Below, piece by piece: positions 4,103 through 22,878 of a stretch of DNA of 64,000 nt (position 1 is its first letter; each line of letters starts with the position of its first letter). The DNA is from Methylophilus rhizosphaerae (GTDB lineage Bacteria > Pseudomonadota > Gammaproteobacteria > Burkholderiales > Methylophilaceae): contig NZ_FNFX01000001.1 in the NCBI RefSeq assembly GCF_900100975.1, positions 127,820 to 191,819 of the forward strand. Direction: 5' to 3'. A model generated the notes under the pieces. The model saw only the letters and a list, made by a program, of their open reading frames with translations. It had not been told where the DNA came from and ran no database searches. Both the position numbers and the translations under genes were made by a program.

Positions 4103-5131
4103 ATGTCCACAGATAACAAAATTGACAGCATTTGGTACACCCGCTGCCCGGTACCCACCCCACTCGGCCTCGCCGCACGTGAAGGCTGGTTTAGCAGCGA
4201 ATTTGTGCAAGATGGCATCACCATCAATACCCTGCAGGAAACCCAGGACCCGGAGTTGCTGGAGTCACACTACGACCACCGCCTGCCGCACTCTTTCCGC
4301 CAGGGCGGCAACGTGCCAGCGATCTGGGCCAAAGCCAGAGGCACAGACACCAAAGTCATTGGCCTCAACTGGGTAGACGAAGCACAATTGATCGTGACGC
4401 TGCCAAATTCAGGTATTACAAAAGTTGAACAACTCAAGGGCAAACGTATTGCGCTGCCAGTACATGACATCAGCATTGATCACCAGCGTGCCAGCGCTTT
4501 ACGCGGCATTGTGGTGAGCCTGGAAGCCGCTGGATTAACACCGAAAGACGTAGAGCTGGTCGATATTCCAGTTGAGAAACAACCGCCAAGCATCAGCTGG
4601 GCATCAGGCACGCGTGCTGCTTATGCCGCGGAATACAAGGCATTAGAGAGCGGCCTCGTCGATGCCATTTATGTGAAAGGTGCCCGCGGTTATGAAAGCG
4701 CCAATGCCCATGGCGTCACCATTATCTACGATGTTCGTCAGCATCCCGATCCTATCGTGCGATCAAACAACAGCGCACCGCGTCCAATTACTGTCGACGC
4801 AGCATTGCTGCGAGACCGTCCAGACCTGGTAATCCGTTTTTTGAGCCGCATTGTAGATGTGGCTGAATGGGCAGCCAAACACGAAGCTGAAACTGTGGCC
4901 TATATCGCCAAAGAATCTGGTTCAACTGACGAGTGGGTACGCAAAGCCTACGGTGACGACGTGCATCTGCATCAAGGCACCAACCTGGATGCACAAGCGA
5001 TCGCCGGGCTGGAGGCCTACAAAAACTTCCTGCTGGAATGGGGTTTCCTCAAGGGCGACTTTGACGTCAACGCCTGGATCGACCCGGCACCGCTGGCAGA
5101 AGTGTTCCGCCTGAAGAGAAAAGCTGCTTGA
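4103..5131 (+). CDS. DszB-like cytoplasmic desulfinase-family protein, paralogue 1
   Basis: A 342-residue protein of the NMT1/SsuA-like two-lobed fold. It has no signal peptide, so it is unlikely to be the periplasmic binding protein that annotation pipelines would call. Its N-terminal half carries Cys15 (in WYTRCPVPTP), His56 and Arg66 (in FRQGGNVPAI). The His-Arg spacing of 10 and the C-P-V-P and R-x-G-G contexts match the catalytic Cys27/His60/Arg70 of DszB, 2'-hydroxybiphenyl-2-sulfinate desulfinase, as I recall that sequence. The expected reaction is release of sulfite from an organic sulfinate; the true substrate is unknown. ATG at 4103 follows AGGAG (4092-4096). It is driven by a sigma-54 promoter. 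Paralogues: 10730-11824 and 21835-22878. Confidence 0.78.
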   Translation: MSTDNKIDSIWYTRCPVPTPLGLAAREGWFSSEFVQDGITINTLQETQDPELLESHYDHRLPHSFRQGGNVPAIWAKARGTDTKVIGLNWVDEAQLIVTLPNSGITKVEQLKGKRIALPVHDISIDHQRASALRGIVVSLEAAGLTPKDVELVDIPVEKQPPSISWASGTRAAYAAEYKALESGLVDAIYVKGARGYESANAHGVTIIYDVRQHPDPIVRSNNSAPRPITVDAALLRDRPDLVIRFLSRIVDVAEWAAKHEAETVAYIAKESGSTDEWVRKAYGDDVHLHQGTNLDAQAIAGLEAYKNFLLEWGFLKGDFDVNAWIDPAPLAEVFRLKRKAA

Positions 5132-5140
5132 TTCATTAGC

Positions 5141-5178
5141 GCAGATCAGGTATTTCCAGGCGGAAATACCTGATCTGC
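5141..5178. repeat. Perfect 17-bp inverted repeat after dszB1
   Basis: GCAGATCAGGTATTTCC (5141-5157), a 4-nt loop, then its exact complement (5162-5178). No T-tract follows on either strand, so it is not a standard intrinsic terminator. It may stabilise the 3' end of the dszB1 message or act as an attenuator upstream of lsfA. Confidence 0.7.
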
Positions 5179-5202
5179 AACCAACTCGCCGACGCCAGTC
5201 AC

Positions 5203-5280
5203 ATGAACAACATCGAACGCTCTGTGTCCATTCTAGAACAACAAGCAGGCATGGCTCCGCCGCGTGCCCACTGTCATTAA
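5203..5280 (+). CDS. Possible 25-residue leader peptide ending in Ala-His-Cys-His
   Basis: A short frame runs from ATG 5203 to TAA 5280, in the gap between the 17-bp hairpin and the lsfA-like gene. It ends in PPRAHCH, with a single Cys two codons before the stop. Cys-containing leader peptides upstream of sulfur genes can sense cysteine supply by attenuation, which would suit this location. Against it: I see no clear ribosome-binding site and no obvious competing terminator before 5347. This is a candidate only. Confidence 0.28.
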   Translation: MNNIERSVSILEQQAGMAPPRAHCH

Positions 5281-5346
5281 GGCTGCGCGCTGCTGCCGGC
5301 CAGTCCCAACCACCGAACACCCATATCAAGCAAAAGGAGTTTTATC

Positions 5347-5985
5347 ATGACACTCAGACTAGGTGACATCGCCCCCGACTTTACCCAGCAATCCAGCCAG
5401 GGCGCTATTTCTTTCCACGAATGGCTGGGTGATAGCTGGGCCATCCTGTTTTCGCATCCGGCCGATTACACACCGGTGTGCACCACCGAGCTCGGCGCCA
5501 CCGCGAAACTGGCGCAGGAATTTAAAAAGCGTAACGTCAAAGCCATCGCACTGTCGGTAGACCCGGTTGAATCACATCAAGGCTGGATCAAGGACATCAA
5601 TGAAACACAATCCACGGATGTGCAGTTCCCCATCATTGCCGATGCTGACCGTAAGGTTTCGACCTTGTATGACCTGATCCACCCCAATGCCAGCACTACG
5701 GCCACCGTGCGATCTGTATTTATCATCGACCCGCACAAAAAAATCCGCCTGACGCTGACCTACCCGGCCAGCACCGGGCGTAATTTTAATGAGCTATTAC
5801 GCGTCATCGATTCATTGCAGCTAACCGAATACCACAGCGTGGCGACGCCAGCCAACTGGGAAGACGGCCAGGATGTCGTGATTTTGCCGTCAATCACAGA
5901 TCCGGTGGTGCTTGAAACCAAATTCCCCAAAGGCTATAAAACCGTCAAGCCCTACCTGCGCCTGACACCACAACCGAATAAATAA
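5347..5985 (+). CDS. lsfA: 1-Cys peroxiredoxin, Prx6/LsfA type
   Basis: A 212-residue AhpC/TSA-fold peroxidase with the active-site sequence PADYTPVCTTE (peroxidatic Cys ~45) and the long C-terminal region of Prx6 enzymes. It reduces hydrogen peroxide or organic peroxides with a thiol donor in the cytoplasm. LsfA of Pseudomonas is a Prx6 protein induced by sulfate starvation, and the location directly after a DszB-like gene fits that role here. ATG at 5347 follows AAGGAG (5334-5339). No separate promoter was recognised in the 215-nt gap, which holds the hairpin and the small frame. The family is certain; the lsfA name is an inference from context. Confidence 0.85.
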   Translation: MTLRLGDIAPDFTQQSSQGAISFHEWLGDSWAILFSHPADYTPVCTTELGATAKLAQEFKKRNVKAIALSVDPVESHQGWIKDINETQSTDVQFPIIADADRKVSTLYDLIHPNASTTATVRSVFIIDPHKKIRLTLTYPASTGRNFNELLRVIDSLQLTEYHSVATPANWEDGQDVVILPSITDPVVLETKFPKGYKTVKPYLRLTPQPNK

Positions 5986-6054
5986 GCGGTGGATACAACG
6001 GACCGGTCTTACCTCCGGTCCGCCCCACGCACACGTATTGCCGAGAACCTATTC

Positions 6055-7798
<1,744 letters not shown>

Positions 7799-7799
7799 C

Positions 7800-8507
7800 A
7801 TGCCTTACCTGATCTGGGACTTCGACAATACATTGGCATATCGACCAGGCCTATGGTCGCAATGTCTGGTTGACCTCGCGAAAGAGGCTTTTCCTGATAC
7901 CCGATTAACGCGTGAAGACCTGCTCCCGCACTTGTCACAAGGCTTTCCCTGGCATAGCGCTGAACATAGTCATCTGCATCTTAATCATCCCGATGCATGG
8001 TGGAATAACCTTTTACCGATGCTGGCCCGTGCGCTGATTTCCGGTGGCTCGATGGAAGCTCACGATGCAATACAAATTGCCAACCGTGTGCGCACCGAAT
8101 TTATCAACCCGTCAAAATGGGTAGTATTTGCAGACACCGTGGTTACGCTTAATGCGTTATCTGCACGCGGCTGGCGACATATTGCGTTATCCAATCATGT
8201 TCCAGAGTTGCCTCAATTGATGAAAGCGCTCCATCTTGACCATCACTTCGATCACATTGTGACATCCGCATTGCTCGGCTACGAAAAACCTCATCCTTTG
8301 GCATTTGAAGCGGCTATCGCTCTTATTCCTCAAAGTGAACATATCGTCATGGTTGGTGATAACTTTATCGCCGACTATCAAGGTGCCAAATCTGCAGGAT
8401 TGCCAGCCTATCTGGTGCGCAACTCAGATCCTGAATGCGAAACCGCTTTCCCGGATCTGGACACACTGCTACAACATCTTCTTTTACAATCAGAATCCCA
8501 TACTTGA
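7800..8507 (+). CDS. HAD-superfamily hydrolase
   Basis: 235 residues with HAD motif I DFDNTL at residues 7-12, a Ser/Asn motif II (ALSNH), a Lys motif III (GYEKPHP) and motif IV GDNFIAD. It is predicted to be a soluble phosphatase of the phosphoglycolate phosphatase/haloacid dehalogenase type. Its ATG begins one base after the stop of the Ddl-like gene, so the two are probably translated together. Substrate unknown; a phosphorylated intermediate linked to the upstream ligase is a guess. Confidence 0.82.
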   Translation: MPYLIWDFDNTLAYRPGLWSQCLVDLAKEAFPDTRLTREDLLPHLSQGFPWHSAEHSHLHLNHPDAWWNNLLPMLARALISGGSMEAHDAIQIANRVRTEFINPSKWVVFADTVVTLNALSARGWRHIALSNHVPELPQLMKALHLDHHFDHIVTSALLGYEKPHPLAFEAAIALIPQSEHIVMVGDNFIADYQGAKSAGLPAYLVRNSDPECETAFPDLDTLLQHLLLQSESHT

Positions 8508-8593
8508 TAGCGATTGGTCACTCAAACACAGAGCCCAGACTTGATAGAAAGTCATCGCTCACGATAAGGTTCGCCACATTGGTTTAGAAAAGA

Positions 8594-9319
8594 TTAAATC
8601 TTCTCATGAAAATTAGTCGTTCCCTTTTTCCAATAAGCAGCCGCTTTCATCAGTTCTGTTGGTTGGCCGCGTTCAATCAGCAACGCCCTCACCTGTAAAG
8701 CAAAACTATGCTCTCCGGCGACCCAACTGAAGCCATCGCCATCGGGTAATTGTATGGCCCTGACCATATCGATCAACGCTTGGTGAGAGTTAGCCCAGTG
8801 TATGTCTCTTGCGGGCACATGGCCGAAGTCGCGGCGGTCACTGTCGTGTTCCACCTGAATCAACGTAATCACCCTGGTATCTACCGGCAACTCTTCCAAC
8901 CGGCGAGCCACCGCAGGCAAACTGGAAGAATCCGCAATCAACAAATGCCAATCAAAATCCTTGGGAATAATTCTGGAACCTTTAGGCCCGGCAATGATGG
9001 CCTGGTCTCCTGGCTTGGCATTCCTGGCCCAATCCGAGGCATCCCCATTCGCATGCAATGCAAACTCAATAGCTAACTCGCACGAGGCGGTATCAAAACT
9101 GCGTGGCGTGTAATCGCGCCTGACCGTTTCGCCTTGGCTATTGGTAAAAATGAACGTGATATGATCATCAAACGACAGGCTGTTGAATTGCGCCAGCAAT
9201 GGCCCGGTAAAAGTCACCGTGACAAACCCTTCGCTTGTATGATCTACTTTCAACACTTCAACAGGTCTTTGTTGCAATTCAAAGCGGACTCTCTCAAACT
9301 GATGCTCTTTGATAAACAT
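8594..9319 (-). CDS. Siderophore-interacting protein (SIP/ViuB family) FAD oxidoreductase
   Basis: About 241 residues. The FAD-binding motif RDYTPRSFD and a C-terminal NAD(P)-binding lobe (WVAGEHSFALQVR) place it in the SIP family, cytoplasmic reductases that release iron from ferric siderophores or reduce related substrates. ATG 9319 is preferred because AAGGTG (9328-9333, minus strand) is then 8 nt away; ATG 9325 and GTG 9328 are also in frame. It is transcribed divergently from the adjacent MarR-type regulator and shares a promoter region with it. Confidence 0.85.
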   Translation of the reverse strand: MFIKEHQFERVRFELQQRPVEVLKVDHTSEGFVTVTFTGPLLAQFNSLSFDDHITFIFTNSQGETVRRDYTPRSFDTASCELAIEFALHANGDASDWARNAKPGDQAIIAGPKGSRIIPKDFDWHLLIADSSSLPAVARRLEELPVDTRVITLIQVEHDSDRRDFGHVPARDIHWANSHQALIDMVRAIQLPDGDGFSWVAGEHSFALQVRALLIERGQPTELMKAAAYWKKGTTNFHEKI

Positions 9320-9338
9320 TTCCATCACACCTTATTTA

Positions 9339-9353
9339 GTTGATAATATCAAC
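9339..9353. promoter_or_regulatory. Palindromic operator between SIP and MarR genes
   Basis: GTTGATAATATCAAC is a perfect 15-bp palindrome in the 35-bp divergent gap, ending one base before the MarR-family ATG. Its size and position fit a MarR dimer site that would control both genes. Confidence 0.65.
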
Positions 9354-9354
9354 C

Positions 9355-9828
9355 ATGATGACCAACAAAGTAGACATTGTCAACAATAATCCGGATGATA
9401 CGCATCAAGTTTTTGAAACCATCCACCGACTGATGCACATATTCCGCGCACGCCAATACCGCCTGATACAAGACAGTGGTGTCGACCTGACACATATGCA
9501 GCATAAAGTATTAGGTTACTTTGCACGGCACCCAGACGCGACTCTGAGTGATTTGGTAGCGGATTCTGGTAAAGATAAAGCGCAGATTGCACGGCTGATT
9601 ACCGAGGTGCGCGCGAAGGGTTTATTGGATGCAAAACCCGACAGAACAGACAAAAGGGTGACGAGGCTGAACCTGACTCAAACAGGCAAAGATATATTTG
9701 AAAGCCTGAAAAAAGCCGAAAGAGAACTATCCGATCTGGCAGTGCAAGGTCTCACGAAGGAAGAACGCAAAGTACTGCTCAAGCTTTTAGGCGATATTAA
9801 AAACAATTTATCAGGCTCAACGCCTTAA
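9355..9828 (+). CDS. MarR-family transcriptional regulator
   Basis: 157 residues from ATG 9355 (ATG 9358 also possible). The winged-helix core is visible: LTHMQHKVLGYFARHPDATLS, then the recognition region DKAQIARLITEVRAKGL and the wing with the DKRVTRLNLT sequence. MarR proteins bind as dimers and release DNA on binding small phenolic ligands or on oxidation. The start has no ribosome-binding site because the palindrome occupies that place, so translation may be leaderless or begin at the TTG at 9340. It probably represses itself and the divergent SIP gene. Confidence 0.85.
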   Translation: MMTNKVDIVNNNPDDTHQVFETIHRLMHIFRARQYRLIQDSGVDLTHMQHKVLGYFARHPDATLSDLVADSGKDKAQIARLITEVRAKGLLDAKPDRTDKRVTRLNLTQTGKDIFESLKKAERELSDLAVQGLTKEERKVLLKLLGDIKNNLSGSTP

Positions 9829-10172: not shown

Positions 10173-10676
10173 TTATACTGGCTGCCAAACACGTCCGGGC
10201 GCATTCTGGTTAGGATTTCCCTCAATGCGGATCAGCTTGGCCGGGCCATCACGGCGTGGCGAATGAATTTCGTTTTCGTTGTAGACGCGGACATTGCCAG
10301 GCCTCAACTCAATAGAATCGCGCAGTTTAACGGTGCCGGGCTTGCCACCTGGCTCTGCGGGCTCAATCACATCCCAGCCATCCATGGTCGTCACGCCAGC
10401 CACCTGGCCATAAATGGCCCAGGAAACACCGTGATCATGTGGTTGTGTTTTTCTGGCTTCTTTAAACACGTGGCCCAGAATGGCAAAGCCTAAATCGGTA
10501 TCTTCGTACAGTACGCGACGTTGTGGTTGGGCATCATCCAGGTATTGCTGTGCGAATGCCTGATCGGACACCACGTCTTGCAGATAGACGCGTACACGCT
10601 CGCGGCCAGCCGGACCTTTGTCCTCCAGCAAAAAGGTGCGCACCTGCTGCGCGACCGAATCAATTGTAAAAGCCAT
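10173..10676 (-). CDS. Cysteine-dioxygenase-like cupin
   Basis: 167 residues from ATG 10676, which follows AGGAG. It is a single cupin domain with His80 and His82 (QPHDHGVS) and His138 (NENEIHSP), the three-histidine iron site of thiol dioxygenases such as cysteine dioxygenase. The likely reaction is O2-dependent oxidation of a thiol to a sulfinic acid, whose product type is just what a DszB-like desulfinase consumes. It lies 53 nt downstream of dszB2 in the same direction. The substrate is inferred, not read. Confidence 0.75.
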
Positions 10677-10729: not shown

Positions 10730-11824
10730 TTAGGCAGCCAGTTTGCCGCCCTGTTCGTTAGCCAACAGTTGTTGTAAGGCCTGCTGGGCATCGGCCAGTG
10801 GTCTGGTATCAATCCAGGCATCAAAGTCAAAGTCACGGTCCAGAATGCCATAGGTGAGCAGGAAGTTTTTCTGCTGACGGAACAGCTCGATACGTTCTGC
10901 TGACAAGTCAGGGGCCAGTGATAAGTGGAAATCGTTGCGATAAGCAGCCGCAACGCCTTCTGCCGTACCTCCGGTCTCGCTTTGCAGGATTTCATGCACC
11001 CCTGCCAGGTTGGTTTTAGCCCACTCTGCCGCGCGCAGGGTTTGGGTTAAAAAGCGCACCACGATGTCGTAGTGGTTTTCCAGCAGGTAACGGTGCACGG
11101 TGATCGGGCGCGGTGTGCCGTTATTCACACGGAAACGTTTTTCCGGCAACGCATCCAGGTCAATTCCCACCACCAGCCCCTGGTCGCGGGCCCCATCCTG
11201 CGCAGCAGCGCCTTTGACATACACGGCATCGACTTTGCCTTCAAGCAAGGCATTGAAACTGGATTGCCAGCCACCATAGCGACGACCAGAAGCAGTGACT
11301 TCGTTTTGGCCGACTTCTACCAGGTGGATATCATCCAGCGTCAGGCCGACTGAATCCAACGCGCCTTTGTAACCATGCAGGCTGCTATGACGCGTGATGG
11401 TACGGCCACGCTTGTTTTCAATCACGTCTTTTGGGTTATAAGCTGGTAATGCCAGGCGTTTGCCTTTGAGGTCTTCCGGGCGGTGGATATTTGAATCCGG
11501 GCGCACAATAATCGATTGAGACTCCTCAATCCAGGTCAGGCCGATCAAACTGGTATCGGCGCCTTGTGCCTTGGCCGGGATCGCAAACAAATTGCCACCC
11601 TCGCGGATTAGCGTTTGCAGGCCGTGATCGTAATGGTGATGCCTGAAGTCAGCGCTATCGTCATCCTGCAAGGCACGCAGGCGCAGATTGTCTTTGGAAA
11701 ACTCCTCTTGCAGCCAGCCCAGCTTAAACGCAATACCGGACGCTGTTGGCACGCCACCCTGGCCGTTACCGGCACAACGGGTGAACCAAAGTGTATTGTC
11801 TGGAAGTTGTTGTTGGTTACTCAT
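10730..11824 (-). CDS. DszB-like cytoplasmic desulfinase-family protein, paralogue 2
   Basis: 364 residues without a signal peptide. The DszB-type triad is at Cys17 (LWFTRCAGN), His64 (HHHYDHGL) and Arg74 (IREGGNLFAI), again with a His-Arg distance of 10. Compared with paralogues 1 and 3 it has extra residues after the Cys and lacks the C-P-V-P sequence (it reads CAGNGQGG), so its pocket is probably different. ATG 11824 follows AAAGGAA. A sigma-54 promoter lies at 12004-12019, leaving an unusually long leader of ~169 nt. It is followed by the cupin and dodecin genes. Predicted role: desulfination of an organic sulfinate; substrate unknown. Confidence 0.76.
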   Translation of the reverse strand: MSNQQQLPDNTLWFTRCAGNGQGGVPTASGIAFKLGWLQEEFSKDNLRLRALQDDDSADFRHHHYDHGLQTLIREGGNLFAIPAKAQGADTSLIGLTWIEESQSIIVRPDSNIHRPEDLKGKRLALPAYNPKDVIENKRGRTITRHSSLHGYKGALDSVGLTLDDIHLVEVGQNEVTASGRRYGGWQSSFNALLEGKVDAVYVKGAAAQDGARDQGLVVGIDLDALPEKRFRVNNGTPRPITVHRYLLENHYDIVVRFLTQTLRAAEWAKTNLAGVHEILQSETGGTAEGVAAAYRNDFHLSLAPDLSAERIELFRQQKNFLLTYGILDRDFDFDAWIDTRPLADAQQALQQLLANEQGGKLAA

Positions 11825-12147: not shown

Positions 12148-14001
12148 TCAAAGCTGCTCACCCGCCTCATATGCGTGATATAGCTCGGCATATTTGCCCT
12201 GCCGCTGTATCAGTTGTGCGTGCGGACCCAGTTCGGCCAATTCACCATGATGAATGACGGCAATCAGGTCAGCATCACGTATGGTGGCCAGGCGGTGCGC
12301 GATAATAATGGCGGTGCGGCCTTCGCATAAACGGCGCAGTGCGTGCTGGATACGACGCTCGGTTTGTATGTCGACTGCCGACGTCGCTTCATCGAGAATA
12401 AGGATGGTGGGATTGGCCAGGTACGCGCGCAGCAAGCAAATTAATTGACGCTGGCCGTGGCTGAGGTGTGAGCCCAAGGCCCCAACCTCGGTGTGATAGC
12501 CGTGCGGCAAGCGGCGGATTAAATCATCAATGCCCAGCTCAGCAGCGGCCTGCTCAAAGTCGGCCAGCGTGGCCTGAGGTTTGGCCAGATGCAGGTTATC
12601 GACAATGCTGCCACTAAACAGCACATTATCTTGCAGTACCACGCCGACATGTTGACGCAGGTTACGCTGGCTAAGCTGGCGGATATCAACCTGGTCTATC
12701 AGTACCTGCCCTTGCTGCACATCATAAAAGCGCGTCAGCAGCTGGATTAAGGTGCTTTTTCCGTGGCCGGTGGGGCCAACAATCGCCAGCACATGCCCGG
12801 CCGGGACGGTCAAATTGAGGTGTTTAATGACTGGTTTGGACTGGTCTGGCAAATAAGAGAAACTGACATTTTTAAACGCAACTGCACCCTGAATGACCGG
12901 CAAGGCAATCGCATCTGCCTGGTCTACAATTTCTGGCTTGGTATCCAGTAATAAAAATACACGCTGTGCCGAGGCAACCCCATTGGTATAGCGCTCCACC
13001 AGGTCGCCCAACTCTTGCAATGGCCCCAAAAACATATAGACATAAAACAGGCTGGCGGCAAATTGGCCCAGGGTAAGATGGCCCAGGGTGACTTCTTCAC
13101 CACCGGCGACCAAAAGCAGCATCAGGCCCAGTATGGTCAACACGCCAGTGAAATGCGTAAACCAGCCCGAGGCAATATTACTGCGTACCAGTGAGTGAAT
13201 AAAGGCATTCACCAGCGTGCGGTAGCGATGCAAATTGCTGTCTTCCTGCACGGTCTGCTTGATAATGCGCACCCCGGCTACCGTCTCTACCAGATGCGCA
13301 GTAAAGCGCGTGCGGTTTTCGGCCACACGGGCAAAATGCTGGCTCGAAAGTCTGCGAAACAGGGTGCTGGACAATATCAGCAAGGGAATCACCAGCGCCA
13401 GGTGGTAAAACAGCGTGGGTGATACCCACAGCAAAATACCCGCCGCCATGACAAACCTCAGCAAAGCAGAAAATATCTCTGGCGGCCCCTGTATCAGCAA
13501 GGGTTCCAGGGCATCAATATCCCTATCGATTCGGGAAATAATGCGACCGGATTTGGTGCGATCAAAATAAGCCACACTCAATTGCTGCACGTGGCTGAAC
13601 AGGTCTATACGCAACTGGTTCAAAATGCGGATAGCCGCCGTGCCGGAAAAATATTGCGACAGGCCAGCCAGCACAAAACGTGCGGCCCACATACCTGCCA
13701 GCCCGATCATGGCCAGGTTGATTACATGCCAATTAAGGCCAACCACAGTAGTACGGTCAGCCGCTGACTCATAGAGCAAACCAGCATCAATGGCCTGCTG
13801 AATAAAGTAAGGTCGCAAAAACACGAAACAGACCAGGGCCAACTCCAGCAACATGGCAATAAAAATATAGTTTCGTACAGGCTTGAGCAGTGGTAGCAGG
13901 CGCCCGAACATGTTCCTATTCAGCTGCTGTTTGGCCAGGGTTTCTTCGAGTTCGATATCGGACAATGCCCTGACATTCGGGTTACGTTCAGCGGCCATCA
14001 T
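12148..14001 (-). CDS. Heterodimeric ABC exporter, subunit B2 (MdlB/SmdB-like)
   Basis: 617 residues, a paralogue of the 2087-3928 product (shared N-terminus with DIELE, HGQRQL signature region). Membrane domain, then Walker A GPTGHGKST, degenerate signature LSHGQ and intact Walker B ILILDEATSAVD. It starts with two successive ATGs (14001, 13998) inside the end of the upstream subunit gene, a 14-nt overlap that implies coupled translation. With subunit A2 it should form one asymmetric exporter. Like pair 1, it is followed in the same direction by a sigma-54-driven dszB-like gene. Confidence 0.88.
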   Translation of the reverse strand: MMAAERNPNVRALSDIELEETLAKQQLNRNMFGRLLPLLKPVRNYIFIAMLLELALVCFVFLRPYFIQQAIDAGLLYESAADRTTVVGLNWHVINLAMIGLAGMWAARFVLAGLSQYFSGTAAIRILNQLRIDLFSHVQQLSVAYFDRTKSGRIISRIDRDIDALEPLLIQGPPEIFSALLRFVMAAGILLWVSPTLFYHLALVIPLLILSSTLFRRLSSQHFARVAENRTRFTAHLVETVAGVRIIKQTVQEDSNLHRYRTLVNAFIHSLVRSNIASGWFTHFTGVLTILGLMLLLVAGGEEVTLGHLTLGQFAASLFYVYMFLGPLQELGDLVERYTNGVASAQRVFLLLDTKPEIVDQADAIALPVIQGAVAFKNVSFSYLPDQSKPVIKHLNLTVPAGHVLAIVGPTGHGKSTLIQLLTRFYDVQQGQVLIDQVDIRQLSQRNLRQHVGVVLQDNVLFSGSIVDNLHLAKPQATLADFEQAAAELGIDDLIRRLPHGYHTEVGALGSHLSHGQRQLICLLRAYLANPTILILDEATSAVDIQTERRIQHALRRLCEGRTAIIIAHRLATIRDADLIAVIHHGELAELGPHAQLIQRQGKYAELYHAYEAGEQL

Positions 14002-15856
14002 CCAACCCCATCAATTCGCGGTATTGCGCATTATTCTGTACCAGAGACGAATGCGTATCTGACGCTACAATATGGCCATCTGCCAGAAAAAGCACTTTAT
14101 CTGCCAGCAAAATGGTCGATAGCTTGCTGGCGATTACCAGCACCGTTGTCGCCCTGTCTTGCGCTTTCAGCGCGCGGATATTGTTTAATACATTACGCTC
14201 GGTCACGGCGTCCAGTGCACTGGTGGCATCATCCAGCACAAGGATGCGTGGCTGCCCGAGCAAGGCACGCGCCAGGCATACACGCTGGCGCTGACCGCCG
14301 GACAAAGTCACGCCGCGGTCCCCAATACGGGTTTCCAGGCCATCACTCAAGCTCTCCAGCAATTCTGATGCACTGGCCATTTTTAATGCCCATGCCAGGT
14401 CTTCATCAGTCGCCTCCGGTGCCGCCAGCCGCATATTGGCCGCCAGGCTATCAGAGAACAAGAAAGCTTCCTGTGGCACGGTATGCACCTGTTTGCGCAA
14501 CTCGGCCAGTTGCAGGTCTTTCACATCCAGCCAATGGCCGTCATCCCCGGCAATCGCGACCCGGCCATGGGTGACTTCCGCCAGCCTGGGCACTAGGCCG
14601 GCCAGCGTGCTTTTACCTGAACCCGTGGTGCCTACCAGCGCCACAATCTCACCAGCGCCAATTTCAAACGTGCAATCGCTGAGTACCGGATTACCTCCTT
14701 CTGGCGGTAATACCGACACCTGCTCAAAACGCAGGGATAAAGGCCCCCCTGGTAAAGCTTGAGTGCCAGAGTGTATTTCTGGCTCGGCATCCAATAAATC
14801 CCAGATACGCGCTGCCGACGAGCGGGCATCGGCAAACACCTGTATCACCCGACCGACCCCCTCTACGCGGAAAACCAGCGTATTCACCATCAGCAAGGCG
14901 GCAATCAACTGCCCAAGATTCAGCGCCTGTGTGTACACCAGGTGACAGCCAAAACCCAGCACCCACACTTGCCCCAGGGCGACCACAAACTGCGGCAAAG
15001 GGATACGCGAGGTATAAAACGACAGGGCAGCAAACGCCTGCGCCATGAAGCGCTGCACCTGTTGCTCAAAACGCTTGATACGGCTGTCTTCGAGCGCAAA
15101 GGCCTTGATCACGCGTACGCCGTTAACGCCTTCTGTCAGGTCCTGGTTCACTGCATCGTAGGCTTCGCCCACCGCCCGATCAAGTTTAACCAGGTGTTCG
15201 GTTTGCAACAGCAAAATGCCAAAGCCCAGCAAACACAGCAGCAGTGGCACCACGCCTAGCCAGAAGTGATACCAGAATAAAAAGCCCATGGCCGCGCTGA
15301 CCACCAGTGAGGTATCGACCACCTGGCGCCAAAAGCTGATGAGTGCATCCCGCAGCTTGTCAGAATCGCGCGTAGTACGCGTCACCAGTTCGCCTGCTCC
15401 GTGTTGCCAGTGGTAGCTTTGGTCCAGTCGCTGCACCTGAATCAGGATACGCTCACGCAAATGGCCAATCAGGTTCTGCTGGATAACCAGTGATAGCCAG
15501 CCGACAAAATACAAGATTGCAGCACGCGCCAGCGCAATGCCGACAATGATCAGTAGCCAGTGCCAGGCCACTTCGCTATCCAGGGTGCCAGTGACCGTGC
15601 GCACGATGGCTTTGCCATGCTGCACATCATCAATGGCACGCGCAATCAACCCTTGCTGTAGCGCCAGCATGACATTCGCTGCCGCAAACAGGCCGGTACA
15701 AATCCAGAACCTGACTGGTGTTCTGCTATATAGCAGCAGGCAGCGCATCAATGGGTAATCGCGCAGGTTAAATGCCATCAAAGCAGGCCAGCGACGCTTG
15801 CCTGGCTGCGTGAATACAGGTTTTTCTTCAAGGGAGGCTTCAGTCAATCGATTCAA
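13988..15856 (-). CDS. Heterodimeric ABC exporter, subunit A2 (MdlA/SmdA-like)
   Basis: 622 residues, paralogous to the 250-2094 product. Membrane domain, then Walker A GTTGSGKST, normal signature LSGGQRQR and a Walker B (ILVLDDATSALD) with Asp in place of the catalytic Glu. As in pair 1, this degenerate Walker B complements the degenerate signature of the partner. The frame opens with TTG at 15856, which gives an N-terminus of the same length class as A1; internal ATG starts would remove residues upstream of the first helix. It lies 90 nt after the second permease gene, across an 8-bp dyad, so it may or may not belong to that operon. Confidence 0.86.
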   Translation of the reverse strand: MNRLTEASLEEKPVFTQPGKRRWPALMAFNLRDYPLMRCLLLYSRTPVRFWICTGLFAAANVMLALQQGLIARAIDDVQHGKAIVRTVTGTLDSEVAWHWLLIIVGIALARAAILYFVGWLSLVIQQNLIGHLRERILIQVQRLDQSYHWQHGAGELVTRTTRDSDKLRDALISFWRQVVDTSLVVSAAMGFLFWYHFWLGVVPLLLCLLGFGILLLQTEHLVKLDRAVGEAYDAVNQDLTEGVNGVRVIKAFALEDSRIKRFEQQVQRFMAQAFAALSFYTSRIPLPQFVVALGQVWVLGFGCHLVYTQALNLGQLIAALLMVNTLVFRVEGVGRVIQVFADARSSAARIWDLLDAEPEIHSGTQALPGGPLSLRFEQVSVLPPEGGNPVLSDCTFEIGAGEIVALVGTTGSGKSTLAGLVPRLAEVTHGRVAIAGDDGHWLDVKDLQLAELRKQVHTVPQEAFLFSDSLAANMRLAAPEATDEDLAWALKMASASELLESLSDGLETRIGDRGVTLSGGQRQRVCLARALLGQPRILVLDDATSALDAVTERNVLNNIRALKAQDRATTVLVIASKLSTILLADKVLFLADGHIVASDTHSSLVQNNAQYRELMGLDDGR

Positions 15857-15946: not shown

Positions 15947-16720
15947 TTAGCCCACTTGCCGCCACTTGAACAGGTGGGCACTCGCCAGCTTGATCAGCAA
16001 GGACATCAGGTACCCCAGCACACCAATGACAAACGTCACGATAATCAGGATATCCATGCGCGAGGCTTCCTGCGCGTTCATCATTAAATTGCCCAGGCCT
16101 GCGCCGGCAGTGAATAGCAGCTCGCTACCGATGGTGGATAGCCAGGCAAACGCCAGTGCCAGTGAAAAGCCGGTAAATACCTGCGGCAAGGCGGCTGGCA
16201 AAGTGATGCGGCGATAGATTTGCCAGCGGCTCAATCGATAGACCTGCCCGACTTCCCGAAACTTGCTATCCACCTGCAACATGCCTTCAAAGGTGGATAG
16301 CACCACCGGGTAAAACGCCGACAGGCTGACGACGATCAGCTTTGAGGTATCGCCATTACCAAACCACAAGGCGAACAAGGGCACCAGGCCTAATAAAGGC
16401 ACCTGGCGGATCGCATGGTAAACCGGCGTAATCAGGATATTGGCTGTGCGCGACACAGCCACCAGTGAGCCAATAAGGAAACCGGCACTTGCGCCCAGCA
16501 ACAGGCCGGTGAGCGCACGCTGCACACTGGCCTGCACATTGACCAGCAACTCGCCACTGCGACTGAGCTCAACCACGCCCGCCCAGATCTGCCCCAATGA
16601 AGCAAAAGCATAAGCATGATTGGCATCCAGGCGCGACATCGCATCCCAGGCCAGAATAACTAATATCGGCAATACCCAGCCACGCCAGTCGGGGATCCAT
16701 TTATAAAAAGAATTTTGCAT
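15947..16720 (-). CDS. Sulfonate/taurine-type ABC permease 2 (SsuC/TauC-like)
   Basis: 257 residues, multi-spanning inner-membrane protein with the binding-protein-dependent permease (EAA) loop in the form ITLPAALPQVFTGFSLALAF. It closely resembles SsuC/TauC/NrtB permeases. It is preceded, 37 nt away, by a second, different permease of the same family; only one ATPase (19580-20449) and one periplasmic binding protein (20684-21757) are present, so the two permeases may form a heterodimer or serve two binding proteins. The specific substrate is not visible. Confidence 0.85.
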   Translation of the reverse strand: MQNSFYKWIPDWRGWVLPILVILAWDAMSRLDANHAYAFASLGQIWAGVVELSRSGELLVNVQASVQRALTGLLLGASAGFLIGSLVAVSRTANILITPVYHAIRQVPLLGLVPLFALWFGNGDTSKLIVVSLSAFYPVVLSTFEGMLQVDSKFREVGQVYRLSRWQIYRRITLPAALPQVFTGFSLALAFAWLSTIGSELLFTAGAGLGNLMMNAQEASRMDILIIVTFVIGVLGYLMSLLIKLASAHLFKWRQVG

Positions 16721-16757
16721 GCGGATGTCTATCTACTTATTTGCTGTGAATGGATGA

Positions 16758-17525
16758 CTATGCTTTTACCGCGGGCTGCCAGGGAATCAGGCGGATCTCG
16801 GCCCACTTAAAGATTTTGTCTATGCTAAAACCAACCAGGCCGGTGATGACGACACCAACCATGACTATATCCAGGCGGAACATTTCGCGCCCTAATTGCA
16901 TCATTTGGCCGATGCCGCTATCGGCGGCCAGCAATTCCGCCGCGACCAGGATAGTCCAGGAGCGTGAAAAGGCGATCCTGAGCCCGGTGAAGACCGGTGG
17001 CGTAATGGCCGGAATAATCAGCTTGCGATACAGCGTCGTTTTGGGCAGGTGATAAATACGCGCGACTTCAAAATAGTTGCGGGATACCCCCTTGGTCGCA
17101 TCATAGGCCGCCAAAGCCACGGTCAGGAAAGCTGCCTTGACCACGATAATGACCTTGAAACTCTCATCTACGCCCAGTAACAGAATCAGGATAGGAATCA
17201 AGGCGATGGTAGGTACCTGACGCAACCCCTGGAACGTGGGCAGTACAAACGCTTCCACCCGCGGTGAAATGGCCATCCAGATACCAAACAGCACGCCAGT
17301 CACGGCGCCTGTGCCAAAGCCGATCAATAGCCGCAAGAAGCTGGTTTTGAGGTGCAACGCCAGCTCGCCACTAGCTACCAGTTCCTGCAATGTCGCCAGC
17401 ACCGCAGCCGGCGAGACCAGCACATCGTCAGAATACCAGCCGGCTGCAGTTGCCCACCACCAGACCACCAGTAACAGCAGCGGTGATATCAGGAAAGGAA
17501 GGAATCGTTTCCAATCACGTGTCAT
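16758..17525 (-). CDS. Sulfonate/taurine-type ABC permease 1 (SsuC/TauC-like)
   Basis: 255 residues, same family as the next gene, with several membrane helices and the EAA-loop sequence LIIPAITPPVFTGLRIAFSR. Begins 21 nt after exbD, in the same run as ssuB-tonB-exbB-exbD. It is an inner-membrane channel subunit for import of an organosulfur-type anion; the sequence does not reveal which one. Confidence 0.85.
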   Translation of the reverse strand: MTRDWKRFLPFLISPLLLLVVWWWATAAGWYSDDVLVSPAAVLATLQELVASGELALHLKTSFLRLLIGFGTGAVTGVLFGIWMAISPRVEAFVLPTFQGLRQVPTIALIPILILLLGVDESFKVIIVVKAAFLTVALAAYDATKGVSRNYFEVARIYHLPKTTLYRKLIIPAITPPVFTGLRIAFSRSWTILVAAELLAADSGIGQMMQLGREMFRLDIVMVGVVITGLVGFSIDKIFKWAEIRLIPWQPAVKA

Positions 17526-17546
17526 GAATTATTGCCCTTATACTTG

Positions 17547-17951
17547 CTACTCACCCTGCGTCAGCACCGCCACCCGCGTAATGCCGGCCCGTTCTATCGC
17601 CGCCATCACTTTGGCCACCTTGCCATAATTGACAGCTTCATCAGAACTCAGGTGCAAAGTTACATCCGGGTTATGGTCATGCAATTGCTTGAGCGCAGGC
17701 TCTATCTTTTCCAGGGGATATTCCTCACGGTCAATAAACAGCTTGCCCGCCGCATCCACTGACACCGTGACCGGTTTTTTCGGCTCAGGTGCCTTGGTGG
17801 CTGCAGTCTTGGGCAGGTTGACCTGGATCGCATTGTTCATCAATGGCGCGGTGACAATAAAAGCCACCAGCAGTACCAGCATGACATCAACCAGGGGCGT
17901 GACATTGATTTCACTCAGTACATCATCTTCAGCACTTGTTGAAATAGCCAT
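17547..17951 (-). CDS. exbD: ExbD, TonB energy-transduction subunit
   Basis: 134 residues: short N-terminus, one membrane helix with the essential Asp (LVDVMLVLLVAFIV) and a periplasmic domain. It uses proton-motive force with ExbB to power TonB. Its start overlaps the exbB stop by one base (TAATG). The set is located within a sulfur ABC importer operon, which suggests dedicated service to a receptor for the same nutrient. Confidence 0.92.
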   Translation of the reverse strand: MAISTSAEDDVLSEINVTPLVDVMLVLLVAFIVTAPLMNNAIQVNLPKTAATKAPEPKKPVTVSVDAAGKLFIDREEYPLEKIEPALKQLHDHNPDVTLHLSSDEAVNYGKVAKVMAAIERAGITRVAVLTQGE

Positions 17952-18694
17952 TATGCAGTTGCTCCTTTGAGGTTACGCACCACTGCAGACGTCCCAGAGG
18001 CAACGAACTCGCCCGGCCTGGTCGCATCGGTTGCTTTTCTGAATGTCACGCGGCGGGAAACTTTAATCAGGTCTTCGGCAAAATCATCCAGGTTATTACT
18101 ACTTGTCTTTAAGCGACGCAGGAAGAAGTTGTAAGCCAGCACGGCAGGGACCGCTACGGCAATACCAATGGCAGTGGCGACCAGTGCTTCACCAATCGGG
18201 CCAGCAACAGCTTCCAGGCTGGCGGTGCCCAGTTTACTGATGTCAGTCAGCGCATGCATGATGCCCCATACCGTGCCCAGCAAGCCGACAAACGGCGCGG
18301 TACTACCGATACTGGCCAAAACGACCAGGCCAGCTTCGCGCAAGACTTTTTCTTTCTGGATTTGCTGGCGTAAGGCCCGCTCCAGCACTTCCTGGCGGTC
18401 ACCGCTATGACGCAAGTCATCCGCGGATTCGGCATCCAGGTCTTTCAGCGTTTCAAAGCCGATCTGGGCAACGCGGTAAGCAGGGCCATTATGCCCTTCC
18501 AACGTCGCAGCTTCCTGCAGGCTCTTGGCGCCCCAGAAGGCTGCCCTGAATTTGACGTTCTGCTTTCTGATCAGCCAGACCTGGAAAGACTTGGCCAGGA
18601 TAATTGTCCAGGTGACACCAGATGCCACCAGTAAAGTAATCAATACACCAAGCACCACAGGGGATGCACTTTGATAGGTTTCCAAACTAAACAT
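17951..18694 (-). CDS. exbB: ExbB, MotA/TolQ/ExbB proton channel subunit
   Basis: 247 residues with an N-terminal helix, a cytoplasmic loop and two C-terminal helices containing the conserved ASIGSTAPFVGLLGTVWGIM sequence of the family. ATG 18694 follows AAGGAA. It forms the proton channel with ExbD that energises TonB. It lies 28 nt after tonB. Confidence 0.93.
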   Translation of the reverse strand: MFSLETYQSASPVVLGVLITLLVASGVTWTIILAKSFQVWLIRKQNVKFRAAFWGAKSLQEAATLEGHNGPAYRVAQIGFETLKDLDAESADDLRHSGDRQEVLERALRQQIQKEKVLREAGLVVLASIGSTAPFVGLLGTVWGIMHALTDISKLGTASLEAVAGPIGEALVATAIGIAVAVPAVLAYNFFLRRLKTSSNNLDDFAEDLIKVSRRVTFRKATDATRPGEFVASGTSAVVRNLKGATA

Positions 18695-18722
18695 GTTATT
18701 TCCTTCTCTTCAAATTAAAAAA

Positions 18723-19562
18723 TTACTGCAGCCTGAACTCAACCGGGAATACTGCCCAACCTTCAACGGGTGTATTTCCACGCTTTGCCGGTGTAAATGC
18801 CCATTTTTTTGCTGCAGCAACCGCAGCATCATCCAGCAAACTGAAACCACTGGATTTCTTAACCTTAACTTCTGCAGGTTTGCCGTTCGGCAGGACCTTT
18901 ACTCTCAGAATAACCGTGCCTTCACTGCCTTGATCTGCTGCAAACTCAGGATATTCCGGTGGTGGATTGTTTAAATGGCCAACACCGCCTTTGGCCTCTA
19001 CCAATGGCTCTTCTTTCACCACCGGTGGCGCAGGTGGGGCGGGCTCTGGTGCCGGATCGGCAACTACAGGCCCGGTGGTTTTGGCGGCGGTAGTGTTTTC
19101 CTGCACTACCATGTCATTTGGCGCAATATTTTGCTCGGCCGGTGCCGTTTTCAGCGCCGCTGGCTTGGGTGCCACTTTAGGCGGCGGCTCGGCATGCTGC
19201 ACCTTGGGCGGCGGTGGAGGTAATGGTTTGGGTGGTTCAATCACCGGGGGTGGTTCAATTTCGGGTTTCACAAACTCGACAATGACTTCGGTTTTTTTGG
19301 GCTTGACGATGCCAGGCTGCTTCAAGGCATTGATAAAACCTGTGAGCCCCAGGATATGCGCCAGCACCACCACAGCGATAAGTACCAGCAATTTGTTGCG
19401 TGGGATAATCTGCTCTACATGATGCAATTTGCTAACCACACGCTCAGATAATTTGTCAAAATCCTCGCTGGTGGCAACCAACTTCCTGGCCTTGCTTTTA
19501 TCCGTCAGGGAATCCCAGATCGTGGAATGCTGCGCTGGCGTTTTTAGTGCCGTTGTTGACAT
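18723..19562 (-). CDS. tonB: TonB
   Basis: 279 residues: an unusually long (~55-residue) cytoplasmic N-terminus, one membrane anchor (LLVLIAVVVLAHILGLTGF), a Pro/Glu/Lys-rich periplasmic spacer and a C-terminal TonB domain (NPPPEYPEFAADQGSEGTV). It transmits energy to outer-membrane receptors such as the one ending at 168. The gene lies 17 nt downstream of ssuB, in one transcription unit with it. Confidence 0.92.
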   Translation of the reverse strand: MSTTALKTPAQHSTIWDSLTDKSKARKLVATSEDFDKLSERVVSKLHHVEQIIPRNKLLVLIAVVVLAHILGLTGFINALKQPGIVKPKKTEVIVEFVKPEIEPPPVIEPPKPLPPPPPKVQHAEPPPKVAPKPAALKTAPAEQNIAPNDMVVQENTTAAKTTGPVVADPAPEPAPPAPPVVKEEPLVEAKGGVGHLNNPPPEYPEFAADQGSEGTVILRVKVLPNGKPAEVKVKKSSGFSLLDDAAVAAAKKWAFTPAKRGNTPVEGWAVFPVEFRLQ

Positions 19563-19579
19563 ACAAACTCCTAATGACT

Positions 19580-20449
19580 CTAACTAATCTCGATGAAGTC
19601 ACTTAGGACATCATCCTTAATACGTTGAAACTCGGCTGAAGTGCGGTGCCGCGGCCTAGGCAAATCTACCTCCACCACACGCTTGATACGCCCTGGATTC
19701 GCCTCCATGACCACCACGCGGTCCCCCAGGAACACAGCTTCCTCGACATCATGTGTGACCAGAATGGAGGTCGTGCCTTCGGTTTCCCACAAGCGTTGCA
19801 ACTCCTGCTGCATTTTGAGCCTGGTCAACGCATCCAATGCCCCGAACGGTTCATCCAGCAATAACAACCTGGGTTTAAGCACCAGCGCCCTTGCAATCGC
19901 CACGCGTTGTGACATGCCACCCGAAATCTGATGAGGGTATGCATTTGCAAAGCCGCTCAACCCAACCAGCTCAATCTGGTGGGTCACCCTCGTTTTCACT
20001 TCATCCGGCGTTAAACCGGAAGATTCCAGCGCCAGCGCGACGTTTTCCCTGACAGTCAACCAGGGGAACAGGCGGTGCTCCTGAAATATCAGGCCGCGAT
20101 CAAGCGAAGGCCCCACCACTGTTGAGCTCAACCAGGCAATGCTGCCGTCATACACCGTATCCAGCCCGGCAATCAATCTCAATAATGTAGATTTACCGCA
20201 ACCGCTGCTGCCAACGATAGAAATGAACTCCCCCTTCACAACTTGCAGGGAAAAGTCGGAAAGTACATTCAAGGGCTTGCCATTTAACTGAAAAGTCTTG
20301 GAAACACCACCCACATCAAGCACTGTGGTTGTACTAGCCAAGGCCAGATGGCTTACGCCATTTAATTGCGCAACGGGTGCTGTAGCATGATCAAGATCGC
20401 TGATACTTTCCTGATCCAGGTAATTTAAAGCGGCTTTGGTACGACCCAT
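19580..20449 (-). CDS. ssuB: Sulfonate-type ABC importer ATPase (SsuB/TauB-like)
   Basis: 289 residues from ATG 20449 (AGGAAG upstream); the frame extends to 20470 but that would lie upstream of the predicted transcript start. Walker A GSSGCGKST, signature ISGGMSQR, Walker B LLLLDEPFGALD and the VTHDVEEAV switch are typical of SsuB/TauB/NrtD ATPases. An N-terminal extension of ~45 residues precedes the domain. First gene after the sigma-54 promoter at 20483-20498; drives import through the permeases at 15.9-17.5 kb. Confidence 0.88.
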   Translation of the reverse strand: MGRTKAALNYLDQESISDLDHATAPVAQLNGVSHLALASTTTVLDVGGVSKTFQLNGKPLNVLSDFSLQVVKGEFISIVGSSGCGKSTLLRLIAGLDTVYDGSIAWLSSTVVGPSLDRGLIFQEHRLFPWLTVRENVALALESSGLTPDEVKTRVTHQIELVGLSGFANAYPHQISGGMSQRVAIARALVLKPRLLLLDEPFGALDALTRLKMQQELQRLWETEGTTSILVTHDVEEAVFLGDRVVVMEANPGRIKRVVEVDLPRPRHRTSAEFQRIKDDVLSDFIEIS

Positions 20450-20482
20450 GACTCTTCCTGTACAAAACAATAGTTCTATATA

Positions 20483-20498
20483 GGCAAGCCCTATGCCA
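20483..20498 (-). promoter_or_regulatory. Sigma-54 promoter of ssuB-tonB-exbBD-permease operon
   Basis: Minus-strand TGGCATAGGGCTTGCC: intact TGGCA and TTGC elements with correct GG-GC spacing. Predicted start near 20472, 23 nt before the ssuB ATG. Confidence 0.75.
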
Positions 20499-20603
20499 AG
20501 TTTGAGATAATTAAATTTCCCTTTAAAAACAGATAACTATGAATATCTTGTTAAATATGGACAGTTAAGAATGTTGTATATCAATCATTTGAGTGATCGC
20601 TGG

Positions 20604-20619
20604 TGCTGTTATAGCAACA
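20604..20619. promoter_or_regulatory. Upstream activator site for the ssuB promoter
   Basis: TGCTGTTATAGCAACA; its complement TGTTGC-TATA-ACAGCA differs from the island consensus at one position. It lies 106 bp upstream of the -24 box. Confidence 0.5.
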
Positions 20620-20624
20620 GACAT

Positions 20625-20654
20625 AAAAAAACAGATGGAAGGTATCCATCTGTT
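20625..20654 (-). terminator. Intrinsic terminator after the binding-protein gene
   Basis: On the minus strand AACAGATGGA pairs with TCCATCTGTT around a short loop and runs into a T-tract. It ends the aldolase-dszB3-binding protein operon, separating it from ssuB, which has its own promoter. Confidence 0.85.
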
Positions 20655-20683
20655 AATAGTGAAATTGCCCGGAAGCAAGAATA

Positions 20684-21757
20684 TTATTGTTTTGATGCAA
20701 TCTGGGATGGCGCCCAGAAGGTTTCCAGTTTCAACTCTTTTAAAGCTTTGTCGACAAAGCTCGCATTCAAGAGCTGGTTGATGTTGATCTCATTGCGGAT
20801 CAGCCCTGACTCACGTGCATAGGCTGCAGCCCGTTTATAGTGATCAATCAGGGCCTGGTCGTACAGGGGGGACCAACGGTCACGCCAGCTGACACTATCC
20901 TCTTCATAATCACGCCTGGCCACACTCTCGGGCTGCACCACGCTTGCATATTCTTTCAAGTAAGTTTCCTTATGTGCTTCTTGCGCAGCCCAGTGGTTGG
21001 CCTTGATAAACGAAGTGACAATTGCCTGGGTTAATTCCGGGTATTGCTGCACAAAATCATTGCGTGCCCACAAGCCTCCCATCAGTTTCCAGTCCGGCGG
21101 AGCGTTTTTAGTCGACCAGATGATCTTGCCCACCTTTTTATCCACCAGGTTATAAGCGTCACTCAGGGAATAAAAAGCATCCACGGAACCACTGGCCAGT
21201 GCAGCTGCGCCGACTTGTGGATTCACATTCACAATTTTAAAATCAGTGAGTTTGAAGCCGTTTTTTTGCACCAGGTTGGCAAACGCGATTTCCCATGGCC
21301 GTCCCCGGTGCAAGGCAATGCGTTTCCCCTTGAGGTCTGCAATATTTTTTGCAGTGGAATTTGCCGGGACAACAAGATACGAATTGCCACTGCGTCCCCA
21401 GGGCGCTACGAGCTGCACCCGTGGTTTGGAGCCATTGAGGATAATCGGTGGCAGATCACCATAGGCGGCAAAATCGATGGTTTTATTGGCAAACGCTTCG
21501 TTGATAATCGGCCCGACCATGGCGGTGGCTGCAGGCACCCACTCGACTTTTACCCCCCGCTTTGCCAGCTCGGCATCCAAACCGGTTTCTGTGACTAATT
21601 CCGTACTGCCCAAGTAGCGGGTTTTACCGTTGACGTTATATGCAACGGTTGCAATACGGACGACTTTCGGTTCGTTTTCCATACTATAAGCATCGGTTGT
21701 GCCAAAGAAGAACGCCAGTACCGATATTGAAAAACCATATTGTAAAAACTTAATCAT
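20684..21757 (-). CDS. Periplasmic sulfonate-type ABC binding protein (SsuA-like)
   Basis: 357 residues from ATG 21757 (AGGAG upstream), with a signal peptide at the N-terminus (hydrophobic ISVLAFFFGTTDA). The mature protein shows the SsuA/NMT1 pattern, including DLKGKRIALHRGRPWE and a C-terminal QALIDHYKRAAAYARESGLI. Unlike the three DszB-like paralogues it is exported and lacks their Cys-His-Arg triad, so it is the real binding protein of the importer. The frame extends upstream to 21838 without a plausible start. Likely ligand class: sulfonates or related organosulfur anions. Confidence 0.83.
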   Translation of the reverse strand: MIKFLQYGFSISVLAFFFGTTDAYSMENEPKVVRIATVAYNVNGKTRYLGSTELVTETGLDAELAKRGVKVEWVPAATAMVGPIINEAFANKTIDFAAYGDLPPIILNGSKPRVQLVAPWGRSGNSYLVVPANSTAKNIADLKGKRIALHRGRPWEIAFANLVQKNGFKLTDFKIVNVNPQVGAAALASGSVDAFYSLSDAYNLVDKKVGKIIWSTKNAPPDWKLMGGLWARNDFVQQYPELTQAIVTSFIKANHWAAQEAHKETYLKEYASVVQPESVARRDYEEDSVSWRDRWSPLYDQALIDHYKRAAAYARESGLIRNEININQLLNASFVDKALKELKLETFWAPSQIASKQ

Positions 21758-21834
21758 GCTTACTCCTATAAACTGCAAGCCATCACGTTCATCCCGTGAT
21801 GACTTATTTGCAACGATTCCAGACACCCAAAGGG

Positions 21835-22878
21835 TCAAGCGACAGCTGCATATTGATGCAATAACTGCCCTGCTTCACGCAACGGCCTGTCATCCACCCA
21901 TGCATCCAGGTCAAAATCCTTGTCCAGGAGCCCATGTACTAACATGAACTGCTTTTGCTGCCTGAACAATTCGATACGCTCTCTGGATAAATCCGGGGCC
22001 AGGTGCAAATGGAATTCCTCACCATAGGCCGTGGCCACGCCCTCTTCACCGGAACGCGTCTCCGATTCAAGAATGTCGCGCACGCCTTTAAGGTTATTTT
22101 TGGCCCAGTCCGCTGCCCGCAGGGTCTGGTATAAAAACCTGACGACCAGGTCAAAATGATTTTCCAATAGGTCCTCATGGACAGTAATCGGCCTGGGTGT
22201 ACCGTTGTTCACGCGTGTAGATAAATCCGGAAAGCTATCCAGGTCAATGCCGACAACAGCACCTACCCGTTTTGCGGCATCCACGGCGGAGGCACCTTTC
22301 ACGTAGACGGCATCCACATGCCCGGCGATCAGGGCATCCAGGCCAGCCCATAACTCACCCAGCCCGTTACGGTTACCGCGGCCGGAAGCCACTTCAACCA
22401 GGGTGACATCATCCAGCGTCAATCCGGCAATCTTAAGTGCTCCCTTGTAACCGTGCAGACTCATGCCACGTGCAATACTGCTGCCGCGCACATGGCTGGG
22501 GATGGGGTGATCAATAAATGCCGGCAAGGCAAGACGCAAACCTTTCAAATGCTCAGGCTTGCTGATGCCGCTGTCCGGCCTGACCAGAATGGCCTGCCAC
22601 TCATCAATCCAGGTCAACCCGATCAATCTGGTTGGTGCACCCTGGGCCCTGGCTGCCAGGGCCAGCAAATTGCCGCCTTCACGGATCAGGCTGTTTAACT
22701 CATGATCGTAATGGTGTTTTGATAATTCTTTTGGCGCCTCTTGCAAGGTCGCTATCCTGATATTGTCACGCGCAAATTCATCGGTCAGCCAGCCTAATTT
22801 ATAAGCCAGCCCGGTTGCAGTCGGTACCGGGCAGCGCGTGAACCAGATTTGATCAATATTTTGTTGGGTGGTAGTCAC
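21835..22878 (-). CDS. DszB-like cytoplasmic desulfinase-family protein, paralogue 3
   Basis: 347 residues, no signal peptide, starting at GTG 22878 with AAGGGA upstream. Triad Cys16 (IWFTRCPVPTA), His56 (HHYDHEL) and Arg66 (IREGGNLLAL), His-Arg distance 10. It is closest in its N-terminus to paralogue 1 (C-P-V-P kept) and elsewhere to paralogue 2 (GLTWIDEW/GLTWIEES, YGAL-type HGYKGAL sequence). Second gene of the aldolase-dszB3-SsuA-like operon under the sigma-54 promoter at 23663-23678. Predicted to release sulfite from an organic sulfinate in the cytoplasm; substrate unknown. Confidence 0.77.
   Translation of the reverse strand: MTTTQQNIDQIWFTRCPVPTATGLAYKLGWLTDEFARDNIRIATLQEAPKELSKHHYDHELNSLIREGGNLLALAARAQGAPTRLIGLTWIDEWQAILVRPDSGISKPEHLKGLRLALPAFIDHPIPSHVRGSSIARGMSLHGYKGALKIAGLTLDDVTLVEVASGRGNRNGLGELWAGLDALIAGHVDAVYVKGASAVDAAKRVGAVVGIDLDSFPDLSTRVNNGTPRPITVHEDLLENHFDLVVRFLYQTLRAADWAKNNLKGVRDILESETRSGEEGVATAYGEEFHLHLAPDLSRERIELFRQQKQFMLVHGLLDKDFDLDAWVDDRPLREAGQLLHQYAAVA

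Follow-up and report, generated by a model that had tools for sequence, protein, structure and literature searches.

DszB-like proteins, putative sulfinate desulfinases, in an apparent sulfate-starvation island of Methylophilus rhizosphaerae

The 64,000-nucleotide stretch of the Methylophilus rhizosphaerae genome analysed here (positions 127820-191819 of contig C10, hereafter the window) carries three genes whose products resemble DszB, the 2'-hydroxybiphenyl-2-sulfinate desulfinase. DszB is a slow enzyme known mainly from fuel desulfurisation. Proteins 1 to 3 (P0001, P0002 and P0003; Table 1) are DszB-family proteins of a known kind, often mis-called elsewhere as binding proteins, and with a probability of roughly 0.75 we read them as cytosolic desulfinases serving sulfur assimilation by way of TonB and ATP-binding cassette (ABC) import, monooxygenases and the release of sulfite. 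Homology, fold (modelled for two of the three), conserved residues, a non-hydrophobic N-terminus, gene context and depletion of Cys and Met are the observations behind this reading, and the proteins probably help their methanol-eating host to scavenge sulfur when sulfate is scarce.

A preliminary description of the same DNA had placed the three open reading frames (ORFs) and named a Cys, a His and an Arg in each; both the coordinates and the residue numbers proved exact. The second and third genes and that of the neighbouring SsuA lie on the minus strand. Each protein contains a single Cys, and the His lies exactly 10 residues ahead of R-x-G-G, an arrangement which had been compared with Cys27, His60 and Arg70 of DszB; the excerpts of PMC6100217 and PMC12168087 give these same residues as its active site. 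The residues and their spacing are present in all four DszB-like copies of the genome, protein 2 revealing in alignments six additional residues between the Cys and the conserved V-P-T (C-AGNGQGG-VPT versus C-P-VPT). When one genome per species was scanned, relatives made up 537 of the 578 pattern matches, and the best 80 led to 78 loci from Methylophilaceae, Pseudomonas, Oxalobacteraceae, sphingomonads and others. Run on the ORFs of these loci, the motif C-x(25,60)-H-x9-R-x-G-G matched 139 of 173 DszB-like ORFs; the 59 SsuA-like ones gave no match, and the remaining 7113 gave 16. Its occurrence in DszB-like ORFs exceeds chance. A Sphingobium copy (L011:12471-13523) retains Cys and Arg, with Asp in place of His.

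As had been proposed, no signal-like hydrophobic N-terminus was seen in proteins 1, 2 and 3, for which the highest Kyte-Doolittle mean over 12 residues within the first 40, a crude measure, was 0.62, 0.95 and 0.56, versus 1.92 for the SsuA of the locus (20684-21757). The latter has none of the three triad residues, also in agreement with the description. Since Mycobacterium DszB reaches 1.8 on this simple hydropathy measure, a high value is no proof of export.

Sequence, profile comparison, fold and tree all support the suggested kinship with DszB over one with binding proteins. DszB was the top PDB match by phmmer for all three (E 2.8e-12, 3e-6 and 4e-11 for proteins 1, 2 and 3). In these alignments the Cys of proteins 1 and 3 sits on DszB Cys27; the N-terminus of protein 2 lies outside the phmmer alignment, its Cys correspondence coming from the family alignment, and the register of Cys27, His60, Arg70 and R-x-G-G was obtained with phmmer for proteins 1 and 3 and with MAFFT for all. 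The family profile matched DszB with E 2.5e-29 versus E 3.1e-9 for the local SsuA. Structural alignments of predicted models, covering proteins 2 and 3, revealed a fold shared with DszB across 311-319 aligned residues, and by these models the fold appears closer to DszB than to binding proteins. In a tree of 88 rows, composed of 61 of 165 homologues and references, a branch with 100/100 support divides 11 binding proteins from DszB, the remaining homologues and the four own copies. The tree was built with DszB present as one row, a long branch whose exact place is unsure.

Three distinct paralogues had been described, of which the distinctness stood, as separate old subfamilies, and the count did not: the genome holds four, the last (P0005) just left of the window. 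The accompanying suggestion that these paralogues act on different substrates is borne out only in part. In the tree, protein 1 clusters with Methylovorus, a row from Myxococcaceae is the weakly supported (93/59) partner of the fourth copy, and proteins 2 and 3 belong to different subclades within a third large clade. Recent paralogy is ruled out by these separate clades beside other genera, and the four copies thus represent old subfamilies brought together in a single island. Among named relatives, those nearest to protein 3 come from Methylophilus (87 and 85% identity), fitting the term methylotroph used at the outset.

Sulfur content provides a further feature. Compared with a baseline of 3.53% Cys plus Met, derived from 27 local proteins picked by eye and with the start Met excluded, proteins 1, 2, 3 and the fourth copy hold 1, 1, 3 and 2 such residues versus 12-13 expected, and a TonB receptor of 818 residues (L010:8531-10987) holds one after its start versus 28.9 expected. 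All 16 island proteins tested were below expectation (P 5e-12 to 0.018). Low Cys and Met contents of sulfur-acquisition proteins, DszB included, are described in excerpts of PMC8557817 and PMC7661421. No second Cys is found in 121 of 136 Cys-type homologues, and the sole Cys kept in these sulfur-poor proteins is the predicted catalytic one.

For proteins 1 to 3 we infer catalysis, the order of steps, substrates and regulation by starvation as follows. Under sulfate starvation, organosulfur compounds would be taken up by the island's TonB and ABC systems, and flavin mononucleotide (FMN)-dependent monooxygenases (two DszA-like, two SsuD-like), together with an FMN reductase, would convert some of them to sulfinates. 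A DszB-like protein would close over the sulfinate, gripped by the histidine and the R-x-G-G arginine, and the single Cys would protonate the carbon, setting sulfite free with no cofactor. Were DszB chemistry to apply, sulfinates of the aryl or alkenyl type would be likelier substrates than plain alkyl ones.

Several results weigh against this reading. Identity to DszB is just 22-24% in the structural alignments, and the Foldseek template modelling scores (TM-scores) come near a tie, being 0.73-0.76 to DszB versus 0.72 to SsuA 3uif for protein 3 and 0.68-0.72 versus 0.70 for protein 2. A two-residue gap in hhalign puts DszB His60 opposite Lys54 of protein 3, unlike phmmer and MAFFT, which align it with His56. 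Depletion is milder in membrane/ABC and oligopeptide transport proteins of the island (Cys plus Met 1.5-2.9% versus 3.53%). Among 22 genomes of the genus, DszB-like and DszA-like genes occur together in three, G010 having only the DszB-like and G002 only the DszA-like gene; the one DszA-like protein compared was nearest to YtnJ and MoxC, with DszA sixth in the list. No SfnB/DszC-like gene was found in the genome by a family search with controls and a protein search without positive control, so that, despite the DszA-like genes, a full 4S pathway operon (dszABC) was discarded. The gene-context counts come from family loci alone: among the 70 loci of at least 16 kb, an FMN-monooxygenase-like gene is present in 57, a class II aldolase-like gene in 59, an exporter-type ABC gene in 45, SsuABC-type genes in 38 and a TonB receptor in 34 (required score of the best phmmer hit, 100 bits or more). 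Finally, 29 of the 165 homologues, all full-length, lack the Cys (Ser in 23, Gly in 5, Arg in 1), with at least four changes on the tree, counted against 15 rows of other named groups only; the DszB-like family is thus not uniformly catalytic.

These Cys-less forms bear on the idea that the proteins are cytosolic binders or sensors of sulfinates or sulfonates without turnover, the site serving for binding and the Cys reporting redox state or ligand. His and Arg are intact in Ser forms from 21 of the 165 homologues, 18 from Pseudomonas and three from Methylovorus, and each of the 18 Pseudomonas forms stands in a same-strand tandem with a Cys form (e.g., L104:728-1783 and 1910-2956). The Ser partners of these tandems, with a mean identity between loci of 91% versus 83% for the Cys partners, are the more alike in 145 of 153 locus pairs and are therefore not decaying. 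Such conservation speaks for binding; the window proteins, however, retain their Cys while island proteins lose Cys and Met, and the C27S exchange inactivates DszB according to the excerpts of PMC6100217, and we consider turnover-free binding unlikely for proteins 1 to 3. In the phylum sample, a Ser/Cys pair was detected in four of six foreign genomes with the family, all four being of one family. This sample and the tandem order were used in place of another observation, that each of the 29 loci holding a Cys-less copy also contains a Cys-type one, which was dropped as evidence since those loci had been fetched through a protein-3-type hit. Natural Ser27 forms offer a direct test of the role of the catalytic Cys.

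Ordinary SsuA-type binding proteins whose signal is weak or atypical would likewise match Pfam NMT1 above its cut-off, as the window proteins do, would account for the annotation of homologues as binding proteins and would yield TM-scores to 3uif close to those to DszB. In NCBIfam TIGR01728 (SsuA_fam) the three reach 89, 54.4 and 53.9 bits, under the cut-off of 163.5, which does not discriminate because the true SsuA (107.3) also scores below it. Tree, VIA Z, motif and hydropathy rule out a plain SsuA reading, and we hold this explanation to be highly improbable. Enzymes of the DszB fold with other chemistry, e.g., a C-C or C-N lyase or a decarboxylase acting on a sulfur compound, come into question because THI5, MqnD and dihydroxyphthalate decarboxylase have the same fold; the models match all three, and the aldolase-like genes in 59 of the 70 long loci would suit such an activity. 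We regard this as improbable for proteins 1 to 3, for which desulfination is the preferred reading.

The DszB-like family is rare and patchy: an even phylum sample of 398 genomes contained it in 7, and the 22 genomes of the genus in 4, own genome counted in both. Its mis-call as ABC binding proteins, anticipated in the preliminary description, is real: 18 among the 60 plasmid rows listed bear the name "ABC transporter substrate-binding protein", one of which (H57) groups with true binding proteins in the tree, and most of the other rows listed are unannotated at the match. On three plasmids, two from rhizobia and one from Paracoccus, a homologue with this label adjoins an acyl-CoA-dehydrogenase-type (DszC-like) gene, and in other records read the homologue lies beside a luciferase-like monooxygenase (LLM) oxidoreductase or near transport genes. 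The gene PA2594 of PAO1 may belong to the family. According to an excerpt of PMC7760384, enrichment of its protein in a bfd mutant went together with that of sulfate-starvation proteins; PMC12581299 gave no mention of it. The open-access literature listings, read by eye, named no DszB-like family of Gram-negative bacteria beyond the 4S pathway; DszB peptides were claimed for Chelatococcus grown on dibenzothiophene (PMC4839641, in excerpt). Only tentatively do we suggest that many sulfinate desulfinases, cofactor-free and as yet without a name, may be widespread in Proteobacteria under the substrate-binding protein label, serving a sulfinate branch of organosulfur assimilation beside SsuD/TauD, and that in Pseudomonas the Cys-type subunit would work with an obligate Ser27 partner that binds the sulfinate and does not cleave it. 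DszB relatives in many Proteobacteria would point to natural sulfinate substrates and new catalysts, and recognising the family would put right a mistaken annotation in such islands of sulfur-starvation genes.

The surrounding locus looks like a sulfate-starvation island (Table 1). Of the four copies, two have an aldolase-like gene alongside and two an exporter-type ABC pair upstream; as importers these pairs are unsupported, matching generic exporters only. For the window aldolase no PDB match by sequence was found. The small protein beside protein 2 gave no match in Pfam and NCBIfam and is retained there in three related genomes (L032-L034). Outside the window, the fourth copy adjoins a class II aldolase-like gene (L010:6076-6780), two DszA-like genes exceeding the TIGR03860 (NtaA/DmoA) cut-off and a TonB receptor, and two SsuD-like genes, under curated cut-offs, lie farther out.

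Table 1. Features of the window and the fourth DszB-like copy.
Feature	Position	Strand	Remarks
DszB-like protein 1 (P0001)	4103..5131	+	342 residues; Cys15 (4145-4147), His56 (4268-4270), Arg66 (4298-4300), codon positions computed by hand
DszB-like protein 2 (P0002)	10730..11824	-	364 residues; Cys17, His64, Arg74
DszB-like protein 3 (P0003)	21835..22878	-	347 residues, GTG start; Cys16, His56, Arg66
Fourth DszB-like copy (P0005)	L010:6805-7884 = contig C10 123844-124857		Cys19, His60, Arg70; just left of window
Exporter-type ABC half-transporter pair	250..3928	+	upstream of protein 1
1-Cys peroxiredoxin	5347..5985	+	
Small protein adjoining protein 2	10173..10676	-	"CDO-like", label by eye
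Second exporter-type ABC half-transporter pair	12148..15856	-	upstream of protein 2; resembles the first by eye
Two SsuC-type permeases	15947..17525 (16758-17525, 15947-16720)	-	translations, named by eye
ExbB-like protein	17951..18694	-	translation, named by eye
TonB-like protein	18723..19562	-	translation, named by eye
SsuB-type ABC importer ATPase	19580..20470	-	translation, named by eye
True sulfonate-binding SsuA	20684..21757	-	3uif E 1.9e-148; signal-like N-terminus
Class II aldolase/adducin-family protein	22895..23617	-	adjoins protein 3; Pfam PF00596 E 6.7e-14
Sigma-54-dependent regulator	23913..25058	+	
NAD(P)H-dependent FMN reductase	25091..25642	-	PF03358 E 2e-27

In comparison with known systems, SsuA and TauA (2x26, 3uif, 6ssy) share the periplasmic-binding-protein fold and a sulfonate-type context with our proteins, but differ in the signal-like N-terminus of the locus SsuA, the motif found in 0 of 59 SsuA-like ORFs and their separate branch (100/100). 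DszB (2de2, 2de3) is alike in fold, in its Cys/His/Arg/Gly site with R-x-G-G, in a Ser or Thr two residues before the Cys, in being sulfur-poor and in the FMN-monooxygenase-like genes often nearby, whereas 22-24% identity, the separate clades, the DszC-like gene not found in this genome and, on our side, the import system, the aldolase neighbours and the six extra residues of protein 2 set the two apart. The Rhodococcus qingshengii protein IGTS8_peg4802, "SsuA/DszB", whose sequence lay outside our comparison, is listed with SsuA, SsuB and SsuD neighbours in an excerpt of PMC8557817, standing there above the heading for dibenzothiophene-lowered proteins and being, therefore, apparently raised. 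The desulfinase bdsA of the actinobacterium Gordonia terrae C-6, likened here by description and not by sequence, differs in its benzothiophene context; according to the excerpts of PMC3868597 it is analogous to DszB and shares the operon bdsABC with two monooxygenases, the neighbouring locus numbers being those of sulfonate-type ABC transporter genes.

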